A stretch of 64,000 nucleotides of DNA from Elusimicrobiota bacterium (GTDB lineage: Bacteria; Elusimicrobiota; Elusimicrobia; UBA1565; UBA9628), in assembly GCA_016191335.1 (NCBI GenBank), contig JACPOW010000055.1:1-64000 (forward strand), given 5' to 3'. The translations under genes and the position numbers were made by a program. Below, piece after piece: positions 42,221 to 46,528 of this stretch (position 1 is the stretch's first letter; each line of letters begins with the position of its first letter). Below the pieces are notes generated by a model, which saw only the letters and a program-made list of their open reading frames with translations, was not told where the DNA came from and did not search any database.

Positions 42221-42230
42221 GCGAAAATGA

Positions 42231-42237
42231 TAGCATA
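42231..42237. promoter_or_regulatory. Symmetric -10 element, bidirectional promoter
   Basis: TAGCATA reads TAGCAT on plus (with upstream TGA, extended -10) and TATGCT on minus. It is centred in the 26-bp gap between the divergent BON (42220) and rdgB (42247) starts, and matches the element at 10362-10368 in sequence and context. Confidence 0.55.
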
Positions 42238-42246
42238 CCCCCTACC

Positions 42247-44550
42247 TTGTCCCGCCACCCGGCTCGACTCGTCCTCGCCACGCGCAACGCTCACAAAGCG
42301 TCGGAGATTTCACGCCTTCTCGGGGTTTCCGGCACGGCCATCGCCTCGCTCGACGCCTTCCCTCCGTTCCCCGAGACGGTCGAGGACCGGGACACCTTGG
42401 AGGGCAACGCCGAGAAGAAGGCGGTGGAGGCCGCGCGCGCCTGCGGGACCTGGGCGCTGGCCGACGACTCGGGCCTGTTCGTCCTCGGCCTCGGCGGCGC
42501 CCCGGGCGTCCACTCCGCGCGCTACGCGGGTCCCGGCTGCTCGTTCGCCGACAACTGCGCGAAGCTGCTGCGTGAGCTCGAGGGCAAGACCGGGCCGATG
42601 CGCGCGGCGTATTTCCGCACCGTGATCGCCCTGTCCGACCCGGGCGGGAAGGTCGAGTTCGCCGAGGGCCGGCTCGAGGGCCTGATCGGCACGGCCATGC
42701 GCGGCGACGGCGGCTTCGGCTACGATCCGCTGTTCACGTTGACCGACGGGCGGACCTTGGCCGAGCTCTCGCCCGACGAGAAGAACGGCATCAGCCACCG
42801 CGGCCGCGCCCTGCGCTCGATCCTCCCGCGCCTGCGCGCCATCCTGGCCTCGGCGCTGCTGCTCGTCTGCGCGGCGCCCGCCTTCGCCGAGAAAACCGAG
42901 CCCGGCCAGCAGACGATCTGGGACCAGATCATGGCCGCGCAGGCCGTGCGCGGCATGCGCCAGGGCCACCGCTACATCGAGGAGAAGAAGTACGACCTCG
43001 CGCTCCAGGAGATGAAGCGCGCCGTCGCCGCGGACCCGAAGAACCCCGTCGGCCACATGCTGCTCGGCGTCGCGCAGTACTGGAACGGCCAGGTGGACGA
43101 GTCCATCGGCTCCTACAACACGGCGATCGGCCTCGATCCGGCGAGCGCGCAGGCGTACCTGCTGCTCGGCATCTCCCACGCCTGGAAGGGCGACGCGGCC
43201 GCCTCGGAGAACGCCTTCCGCCGGGCGACGGAGCTCGAGCCGACCCGCGCCGACGCGCAGATGAACCTGGGCTCGATCCGCGAGTCGCGGGGAGACGTGC
43301 CCGGAGCACTCGTGCTGTTCCGCAAGGCCGTGGACCTCGACGCCAAGAACCCGCTGTACCGCTTCCAGCTCGTCCAGCTGTACCGCAAGCTCGGGCGCGA
43401 CGCCGACGCCGCCGAGCAGCTGCGCGAGGCCGTGAAGCTCGAGTCGACCTACGAGGACGCGATGCTCGAGCTCGGCTGCGCCGAGGAGCGGCTCAAGGAG
43501 GACAAGGCCGCGATCGCGACGCTGAAGAAGGCCGTCTCCCTCAAGCCCGGCGACTCGGTGGCCCGCATGCGCCTGGCGCGGCTCCAGCTGAGGAACGGCG
43601 ACCGCTCCAGGGCCCGCGCGACCTTGATCGACGCGTTCCATCTCACGCCGGAGGTCGGCGGCCCCGGCCTGCAGCTGTCCGTCGCCTACGCGGGGGGCAA
43701 GCGCGCGGCCCGGCCCGGCGAGGCGCCCGAGGACCCGAAGGAGAAGGAGCCGGAGCCGGCGCCGGAGGCCGACCCGCTCGCCGTCTTCGAGAAGAACCTG
43801 CGCCGCGTCCCGCTCGACCAGGGCGCGATGATGAAGGTGGACGCCGTGTTCCTGCCCCGGCCCAAGCTCGTCCGCAGCGAGCCGGGCGAGGGCCGCAGCC
43901 TGAAGAAGGCGCTCGCCCGCGCGCACGAGGGCGGCGCGGCCGGCGAGGCCGCTCCGCAGGCCGTGCGCCGCGACTACGCGCTCAAGCCCGGCGACGCCCG
44001 CGCGCGCGCGGAGCAGGTCAACCGGATCATGGACGACCTGCGCAAGACGATGCGCGAGGCCCCCGCCGACACCGACGCGCGCCTCGGCATGAACCTGACC
44101 TTCACGCGCCCCGTCTCCGCCGGCCGCGGCGACTCCGAGACCCCGGCGAAGGTGAGCTATCAGCCGCGCCAGGTCGGCAACGACATGGGGCTCTGGGTCA
44201 TCGGCACCGGCTGGATGGCGCTCGTCGCCGAGGTCCTGCCCGAGAATGGGGAAAATCCGGAGCATCCCGACGACTCCGATTGGTGGACGGCCACCGGCCT
44301 CGCCTTCGCCGCCGTCGGCGAGGGCCAGCGCGCGGACACCGCCTTCCGCCGCGCGGCCGAGCTCGACCCGGCCTCCGTGCCCGCCTGGCTCGGCCGCGGC
44401 GTGTCCTCGGTCATGATCGGCGACGAGACCGGCGCGGTCGCCGCCCTGCGCAAGGCCCTCGAGATATCCCCGAAGAACAAGGCCGCCGCCGACGGCCTCA
44501 AGTGGCTGCTGCGGCCCGCGGCCTCGACGGCCTCCGCGGAGAAGAAATGA
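42247..44550 (+). CDS. RdgB/HAM1 NTP pyrophosphatase fused through a signal-like segment to a TPR protein
   Basis: A 767-residue single frame. Residues 1-195 are a complete RdgB (non-canonical purine NTP pyrophosphatase): LATRNAHKASEI, ADDSGLFVLGLGGAPGVHSARYAG, GDGGFGYDPLF and SHRGRALRSILPRLR. Directly after come a hydrophobic stretch (199-210) and APAFA-EKT (about 211-217), a textbook signal peptidase I site preceded by Arg residues. From 220 on there are TPR repeats (LALQEMKRAVAADPKNPVGHMLLG and similar), a charged linker and two more TPRs near the C-terminus. No stop codon or usable start lies at the junction. The TTG start follows the TAGCAT by 10 nt; the end overlaps murC (ATGA). Confidence 0.9.
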   Translation: MSRHPARLVLATRNAHKASEISRLLGVSGTAIASLDAFPPFPETVEDRDTLEGNAEKKAVEAARACGTWALADDSGLFVLGLGGAPGVHSARYAGPGCSFADNCAKLLRELEGKTGPMRAAYFRTVIALSDPGGKVEFAEGRLEGLIGTAMRGDGGFGYDPLFTLTDGRTLAELSPDEKNGISHRGRALRSILPRLRAILASALLLVCAAPAFAEKTEPGQQTIWDQIMAAQAVRGMRQGHRYIEEKKYDLALQEMKRAVAADPKNPVGHMLLGVAQYWNGQVDESIGSYNTAIGLDPASAQAYLLLGISHAWKGDAAASENAFRRATELEPTRADAQMNLGSIRESRGDVPGALVLFRKAVDLDAKNPLYRFQLVQLYRKLGRDADAAEQLREAVKLESTYEDAMLELGCAEERLKEDKAAIATLKKAVSLKPGDSVARMRLARLQLRNGDRSRARATLIDAFHLTPEVGGPGLQLSVAYAGGKRAARPGEAPEDPKEKEPEPAPEADPLAVFEKNLRRVPLDQGAMMKVDAVFLPRPKLVRSEPGEGRSLKKALARAHEGGAAGEAAPQAVRRDYALKPGDARARAEQVNRIMDDLRKTMREAPADTDARLGMNLTFTRPVSAGRGDSETPAKVSYQPRQVGNDMGLWVIGTGWMALVAEVLPENGENPEHPDDSDWWTATGLAFAAVGEGQRADTAFRRAAELDPASVPAWLGRGVSSVMIGDETGAVAALRKALEISPKNKAAADGLKWLLRPAASTASAEKK

Positions 44551-45938
44551 AGAAGGACCTGATGAAGTCGTTCGTGCGCAGCATCCACTTCGTCGGCATC
44601 GGCGGCGTGGGGATGGGCGGCATCGCCGAGGTGCTCAACAACCTCGGCTACAAGGTCTCCGGCTCGGACGCGAAGTCCACCGAGACCACGCGCCGCCTGC
44701 AGGCGGCGGGCGTGCGCGTCTTCGAAGGCCACTCCGCGGCGAACGCGAAAGGCGCGCAGGTCGTCGTGGTCTCCTCGGCGGTAGCCGCCGACAACCCCGA
44801 GGTCGCCTACGCGCGCAAGAAAGGCATCCCCGTCGTGCTGCGGGCCCAGATGCTGGCCGAGCTCGGCCGCATGAAGAAGACGGTGACGGTGGCGGGCTCG
44901 CACGGCAAGACCACGACCACCTCCCTCGTGTCCATGGCGCTCAAGGAGGCCGGCGCGGGCCCGACGATGATCATCGGCGGCCAGCTCAAGAACATCGGCT
45001 CCAACGCGAAGCTCGGCGTCGGCGAGTACCTGGTCGCCGAGGCCGACGAGTCCGACGGCTCGTTCCTGTTCCTGACGCCGCTCGTCGCCGTCGTCACGAA
45101 CATCGACAACGACCACATGGACCACTACAAGACGATGGACGCGCTCAAGGACGCGTTCGTCGCGCACCTCCAGCGCCTCCCGTTCTATGGGGCCGCGGTA
45201 CTCTGTCACGATGACCCGGTGCTCGGCTCCATCCGCTCCCGGGTGACGCGGCCCGTCGTGACCTTCGGCTTCGGCGCCGGGGCGGACTGGCGCGCGAAGA
45301 ACGCGCGCATGGGCAAGGACGGCTCGCAGTGCGACGTCTACCATAAAGGCAAGAAGATGCTGACGATGCATCTGCGCGTCGCGGGGCGCCACAACGTCTC
45401 GAACGCGCTCGCGGCGCTCGCGGCGGGGCACTTCCTGGGCTTCGAGCTGGACCGCCTCGCCCGCGGCCTGGCGGATTTCAGCGGCGTCGGCCGCCGCATG
45501 GACCGCCTGGGCGCCGCCGGCGGCGTCGAGTTCGTCGACGACTACGGCCACCATCCCACCGAGGTCCGCGCCACGCTCGCCGCGGTCGCGGGGCTGTGGA
45601 AGGCGCAGCGCGTCGTCGTCGTCTTCCAGCCGCACCGCTTCACCCGCACGAAGCTCCTGTCGCGCGAGTTCGGCTCGGCCTTCAAGGGCGCCGACCTCGT
45701 GTACGTCACCGACATCTACGCGGCGGGGGAGAAGCCGATCCCCGGCGTCACCTCCAAGGTCATCGTGGACGCGATCCGCAGGACCGGGGTGAACGCCCAG
45801 CCGTTCCCGGGAGCGCTGGAGGCGGCGCGCGACCTGCGCCCCGGCGACGTCGTGCTGACCCTCGGGGCCGGCGACGTGTGGAAGATCGGCGAGGACCTCC
45901 TGCGCCGCCGCCGCGGCGGCAGCGCGGCGGGGGTCTGA
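44547..45938 (+). CDS. murC: UDP-N-acetylmuramate-L-alanine ligase MurC
   Basis: Adds L-alanine to UDP-MurNAc in peptidoglycan synthesis, 463 residues. IHFVGIGGVGMGGIAEVL is the UDP-binding start, TVAGSHGKTTTTS the ATP P-loop, EADESDGSFL and NIDNDHMDHY the central motifs, AGRHNVSNALAA the Asn-containing motif, and VDDYGHHPTEVRATL the C-terminal one. Its start overlaps the fusion gene as ATGA. No other mur genes are nearby, so it is separated from the usual cell-wall cluster. Confidence 0.97.
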   Translation: MKKDLMKSFVRSIHFVGIGGVGMGGIAEVLNNLGYKVSGSDAKSTETTRRLQAAGVRVFEGHSAANAKGAQVVVVSSAVAADNPEVAYARKKGIPVVLRAQMLAELGRMKKTVTVAGSHGKTTTTSLVSMALKEAGAGPTMIIGGQLKNIGSNAKLGVGEYLVAEADESDGSFLFLTPLVAVVTNIDNDHMDHYKTMDALKDAFVAHLQRLPFYGAAVLCHDDPVLGSIRSRVTRPVVTFGFGAGADWRAKNARMGKDGSQCDVYHKGKKMLTMHLRVAGRHNVSNALAALAAGHFLGFELDRLARGLADFSGVGRRMDRLGAAGGVEFVDDYGHHPTEVRATLAAVAGLWKAQRVVVVFQPHRFTRTKLLSREFGSAFKGADLVYVTDIYAAGEKPIPGVTSKVIVDAIRRTGVNAQPFPGALEAARDLRPGDVVLTLGAGDVWKIGEDLLRRRRGGSAAGV

Positions 45939-46528
45939 CATGGGAGCGGGTCGGCCCGGAGGCCGCGAAGAACCTCACGACCATCAACGAGGACTTCCTG
46001 CGCTTCGACCTGCGCGAGCTCGGGCCGGGCCCGTTCATCGTCGTCGGCAACCTGCCTTACGCGGTCGGCACGCCCATCCTGCAGCGTCTCCTGGACTGGG
46101 ACGGCTGGACGCGCGCGGTCCTCATGTTCCAGCTCGAGGTCGGCGAGCGCATCGTCGCCCGGCTCGGCGGCGCCGACTACGGCCTGCTGTCCCTGTCGGT
46201 GATGGCCCGCGCCGACGCGCAGCTCGCCTTCGAGGTGCCGCGCACGGCCTTCATGCCCATCCCGAACGTGGAGTCCGCGGTCGTCGTGCTGACGCGCCAC
46301 GCCGCCCCGCGCCTGCCCGCCGCCGAGGAGAAGGCGTTCTGGCGCCTGGCCAAGATCGCGTTCTCGCAAAGGCGCAAGATGGCGGCCGGGGTCCTGAGCA
46401 AGGCGATCGGCAAGCCGCGCGCGGAGGTCGACGCGGCGTTCAAGGCCGCCGGCCTCGGCGTCGCCGCGCGCCCCGAGGAGATCCCGTTCGACGCCTGGCG
46501 CGCTCTGGCGCGCGCCCTATGCCCCTGA
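45938..46528 (+). pseudogene. rsmA: RsmA (KsgA) 16S rRNA dimethyltransferase lacking its N-terminal third
   Basis: The frame gives NLTTINEDFLRFDL, the adenine-binding VVGNLPYAVGTPIL, FQLEVGERIVARLGG, DYGLLSLSVMA, PIPNVESAVVVL and AFSQRRKMAAGVLSKA, all typical of RsmA. The first 80-90 residues, including GQNFL and the SAM-binding EIGPG motif, are absent: the homology begins right after the murC stop codon. There is no ATG, GTG or TTG in frame before the GNLPY motif. It looks like a 5' deletion (real or from assembly) and the product would not bind SAM. Confidence 0.8.

Follow-up and report, generated by a model that had tools for sequence, protein, structure and literature searches.

An in-frame fusion of RdgB to an exported-type TPR protein through an embedded signal-peptide-like segment in Elusimicrobiota

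The RdgB/HAM1 family (PF01725), represented by the structures of the E. coli (2q16) and M. abscessus (6wwd) enzymes, comprises house-cleaning non-canonical purine NTP pyrophosphatases, homodimers that rid the cell of damaged nucleotides by hydrolysing ITP, XTP and dITP. Its known members are soluble, about 200 amino acids long and stand alone in the cytoplasm. Proteins exported through the Sec pathway and cut by signal peptidase I carry a signal peptide with a basic n-region, a hydrophobic core and a small-x-Ala site, and a short core followed by such a site points to a cleavable Sec signal peptide, not to a membrane anchor. In a polyprotein such as the cytochrome b-c1 precursor FbcH of Bradyrhizobium, an internal signal peptide serves to divide the product of a single bacterial gene. 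In the class Elusimicrobia, an exported TPR protein encoded near murC or ksgA is found as a free-standing protein with its own start codon and signal peptide outside the family studied here, with a single exception in a sister family (G045). In the open literature searched, no usable report was found of an RdgB-TPR fusion or of a bacterial signal-peptidase polyprotein.

The window analysed here, a stretch of 64,000 nucleotides from an Elusimicrobiota bacterium (contig JACPOW010000055.1), brings these elements together in one gene. A single open frame of 767 codons, beginning with TTG and ending with TGA, occupies positions 42247..44550 of the forward strand, on which all features described below lie. 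It encodes, in this order, a complete RdgB/HAM1 domain, 2-3 basic residues, a hydrophobic core of 12 residues, the sequence AFA|E and an exported-type TPR protein, and the same fusion is present in 32 genomes. The start at 42247 is favoured because a TTG or GTG is conserved at this position across the genus. The original prediction that RdgB runs without a stop into a TPR protein was confirmed by the open frame and by the profile matches to both parts. The organisms are uncultured and represented by metagenome-assembled genomes, and their proteins are known here from genes alone.

The RdgB domain (residues 8-193, 42268..42825) matched PF01725 (Ham1p_like) with an E-value of 2.6e-57 and 194 bits, against a cut-off of 22.5. 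The score with TIGR00042 was just above its cut-off (146.4 and 145.35, respectively), and that with the stricter model PRK14822 fell below it (199.9, cut-off 234). The motifs TRNxxK, EGNA, ADDSGL, PGVHSARY, GGFGYDP and SHRG are intact in the window protein, which thereby carries the whole family signature of (S/T)xNxxK, ADDSGL, GFGYDP and SHR; GFGYDP and SHR were present in all 32 fused genomes. In the AlphaFold2 model of the whole protein this part is folded confidently, and a Foldseek comparison of the model with E. coli RdgB (2q16) gave a TM-score of 0.91 over the target at 38% identity, so that the predicted RdgB fold is intact. The domain thus shares with described RdgB proteins the whole fold, all signature motifs and the presence of a single copy per genome, and differs from them in that its chain runs on through a signal peptide to an exported-type protein. 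PF01725 was detected once in the genome of the window and in nearly every relative, and the PF01725 search found no second, free RdgB in any of them; therefore, no source of RdgB other than the fused gene is recognisable. No RdgB was detected in G019 (99% complete) or in G032 (90% complete), and the only one detected in G026 is more divergent; these three and G058 are the four family members that lack a close TPR orthologue. In a sister family (f3; L039, L040, L050), RdgB carries a zinc-ribbon-like C-terminal tail, e.g., CPLCGLEMDAWHCRELCPGCGYQIDCSDP, which was not seen in the family of the window.

Several Pfam TPR families exceeded their cut-offs in the remainder of the protein, with matches at residues 241-462 and 674-746, and the AlphaFold2 model shows helical repeats there. 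An N-terminal TPR array (residues 224-461, 42916..43629), with helices mostly above a pLDDT of 80, is followed by a middle region of mixed alpha/beta structure (residues 512-661, 43780..44229), modelled with lower confidence and conserved in relatives within the class, and by a C-terminal TPR pair (residues 677-755, 44275..44511) recognised by both profile match and model. The middle region is typical of the Elusimicrobia TPR family, whose members within the class are orthologous to the TPR protein over its whole length.

The junction between both parts has the anatomy of a signal peptide. The C-terminal helix of RdgB, SILPRLR (42817..42837), doubles as a basic n-region and leads into the hydrophobic core AILASALLLVCA (residues 198-209, 42838..42873) and a c-region APAFA (42874..42888), with AFA|E at residues 212-215 and a predicted signal peptidase I cut after A214. 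The basic end, hydrophobic stretch and AFA-E site therefore lie where they had been described from the sequence. In the AlphaFold2 model, one unbroken helix spans residues 184-208, passing through SILPRLR into AILASALLLVCA, and a low-confidence segment (210-219) precedes the TPR repeats. An alignment of the 32 fused proteins, anchored on the start of the mature protein and not on the cleavage motif, revealed 2-3 basic residues among the 8 preceding the core in 32/32, a core of 11-17 residues (median 13), a small residue at position -3 in 32/32, and at position -1 Ala in 31 and Ser in one. When the last 18 residues were shuffled, the mean number of conforming sites was 11.4 and the maximum 22, compared with the 32 of 32 observed; the sequences are related and do not amount to 32 independent trials, though the proteins diverge down to 48% identity. 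Thus, a basic n-region, a core shorter than a membrane anchor and small residues at -3 and -1 occur together in every fused protein, which gives the fused junctions the look of cleavable signal peptides. A small -3/-1 site alone does not prove cleavage, and its conservation may partly be inherited from the signal peptide of a split ancestor. These signals resemble ordinary Sec signal peptides in n-region, core length and small-x-Ala site; in contrast, the signal of the window protein is located 197 residues into the polypeptide and takes as its n-region the helix that ends a folded enzyme.

The absence of a start codon at the junction, also part of the original prediction, was upheld for the genome of the window, in which no in-frame ATG, GTG or TTG lies between the SHR motif of RdgB and the TPR part. 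Between SHR and the first residue of the core, these codons are missing in 12 of the 32 fused genomes, the window's included, and some are present in the other 20; no position is conserved among the 32, and a conserved hidden start was consequently rejected. In having a single frame, an internal signal and, in those 12 genomes, no second ATG, GTG or TTG start, the gene resembles fbcH, the nearest precedent that we can name. However, both products of FbcH belong to one membrane complex, whereas here the enzyme is a soluble cytoplasmic house-cleaner and the exported protein to which it is joined seems unrelated to it. In a comparison of the short linker, 29 codons differed synonymously and 37 non-synonymously, and changes were distributed 28/16/44 over the three codon positions; beyond a coding-like third-position excess, these few counts add little.

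The survey of relatives covered 58 related genomes, all 44 available members of the family, and the order. Alignment of these relatives, proposed beforehand as a check on conservation of the fusion, showed that 31 of 38 assessable family members are fused and 7 are split; a further fusion (G045) occurs in a sister family. Of the other six family members, five had no orthologue match at E 1e-60 and one (G059) was cut by a contig end. Among fused genomes the distance from SHR to the TPR part differs solely by multiples of three, while in the split relatives of the family the junction is out of frame. Some relatives do have a stop between the domains, which had been envisaged together with a read error in this genome, but the fusion is ancient and shared. 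In a pattern-limited genome scan, no full-length match to the fusion was assigned outside Elusimicrobiota. A plasmid of Legionella adelaidensis (L118:1992-4286) carries rdgB followed 9 nt later by a TPR gene, as separate genes. Several of the matching public records are groundwater metagenome-assembled genomes. In one single-contig assembly (G010, L032), frameshifts that are probably base-calling errors break the TPR part downstream of an intact fused junction.

A tree of 50 rows, built from RdgB and TPR columns with the junction excluded, required 8 changes of state (8-8 over bootstraps). The simplest reading of this tree is that the fusion was ancestral to the family, was gained a second time, independently, in G045, and was followed by approximately six later splits, in the lineages of G016, G009+G017, G002, G024, G062 and G065. 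In G040, the sister of G045, about 1 kb separates rdgB from tpr. In all seven split family members the TPR start overlaps the end of rdgB by 4-11 nt (GTGA, ATGA or longer), and such an overlap is also found in several sister-family members; thus, fusion and splitting amount to small frame changes at one spot. After splitting, the TPR protein begins with an ordinary signal peptide and RdgB ends in a short tail, a hydrophobic tail being kept in none of the six split lineages, an argument against selection for membrane tethering of RdgB. In the tree, the window's genome is closest to G016, whose junction is split. This junction (L031:1643-1772) contains a dispersed palindromic repeat with 62-nt arms and 45 half-matches in that genome, and the TPR signal peptide takes its hydrophobic core from one of these arms. 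In the fused G005, a single perfect half-copy of the repeat (G005:C50:66199-66221) forms the signal-peptide core; apparently a dispersed repeat, translated as LCVFVSLWF, was co-opted as a signal peptide.

Taken together, we consider it probable, at roughly three chances in four, that the fused gene encodes a precursor from which signal peptidase I produces a cytoplasmic RdgB and a periplasmic TPR protein. A single polypeptide would be translated from 42247, and its N-terminal RdgB domain would fold in the cytoplasm. The hydrophobic segment would then act as an internal Sec signal, with the last RdgB helix as its basic n-region, and the TPR part would be carried across the inner membrane (N-inside, C-outside) and freed into the periplasm by cleavage after A214. 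RdgB would be left in the cytoplasm with a short hydrophobic tail, which an intramembrane protease may trim or which may remain in the membrane. Signal peptidase I is encoded in the genome of the window, as is an M50 protease (RseP-type). The arrangement would have originated from an overlapping rdgB/tpr pair in which a frame change removed the rdgB stop, and the fused form would be nearly interchangeable with the split one. The fusion itself, its conservation and ancestry, the anatomy of the signal peptide and the single copy of RdgB are shown by the analysis, whereas export, cleavage and the activity of both products are predictions drawn from sequence.

The original prediction had offered, besides a cleaved polyprotein, a membrane-tethered protein, and of these two outcomes the sequence evidence favours cleavage. 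A stable single-pass fusion would leave the segment uncut and hold RdgB inside the inner membrane by means of a membrane-anchored periplasmic TPR protein, perhaps placing RdgB under control of the state of the envelope. This appears unlikely: most of the family has the fused junction, whose maximal mean hydropathy (1.2-2.5 over 19 residues) would allow membrane insertion in most cases, but the core spans only 11-17 residues and precedes an invariant small-x-Ala/Ser site that no tether would need, and in the six lineages where the proteins became separated no RdgB has retained an anchor. The signal-peptidase polyprotein is favoured over the tether because of this short core and invariant site, the repeated reversion to coupled genes and the lack of an RdgB tail after splitting. 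It is likewise an unlikely proposal that the fusion is kept to make RdgB tail-anchored or tethered at the inner membrane, with its amount or position tied one-to-one to an envelope TPR scaffold and nucleotide house-cleaning coupled to envelope assembly, as the neighbouring murC might indicate.

Dual initiation, in which RdgB runs on into the TPR part and a functional TPR protein also arises from an internal start near the junction, is similarly improbable. The 20 fused genomes with an ATG, GTG or TTG between SHR and core, including one group with an ATG at codon 9 after SHR, speak for it, but the positions are not conserved, the other 12 genomes lack these three codons (the count leaves aside the rarer CTG or ATT/ATC, which are possible), and the same Met is present, without such a role, in the RdgB of split genomes such as G024. 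Several fused relatives have an ATG or TTG near the junction, and in them a second start is possible. As for a sequencing or assembly artefact merging two genes, the window comes from a draft genome of 135 contigs in which the neighbouring ksgA looks damaged; nevertheless, an artefact or chance is ruled out for practical purposes by a junction common to 32 Elusimicrobiota genomes, assembled independently in many projects and diverging down to 48% identity.

The fused gene is followed by murC (44547..45938), whose start overlaps its stop by 4 nt (ATGA), which is present as an orthologue in relatives and which is probably translationally coupled to it. About 10 nt upstream of the start codon lies the motif ATGATAGCAT (42227..42236), which occurs once in the window; ATGATAACAT or a one-base variant was found in all 16 genus members compared, the window included, with the consensus ATGATAaCAT. 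The motif is promoter-like and its role is putative: no sigma-70-type match was found at 42227-42236, and if it served as a -10 element, the transcript would have almost no leader. Downstream, ksgA (16S rRNA dimethyladenosine transferase, 45938-46528) is missing, just after ATGGGAGCG, roughly 60 N-terminal residues and with them the SAM-binding GxGxG region; the full N-terminus is present in every relative examined, and the truncation is either genuine or due to a deletion in the assembly. Across the class the TPR family is conserved, and in most relatives examined it lies near murC and/or ksgA, a location that suggests an old operon but points to no function.

Each part of this protein is known; what is new is a cytoplasmic house-cleaning enzyme and an exported protein joined by an embedded signal peptide, in an arrangement that arose twice, was reversed about six times and has persisted through a family. 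The history of the locus indicates that a gene overlap of a few bases can become a fusion and revert without apparent cost, and it cautions that an RdgB plus TPR domain architecture alone need not imply a functional partnership. If cleavage takes place as proposed, this family would possess a lasting, family-wide bacterial housekeeping polyprotein, in which one frame yields a cytoplasmic enzyme and an exported protein that the export machinery itself separates.
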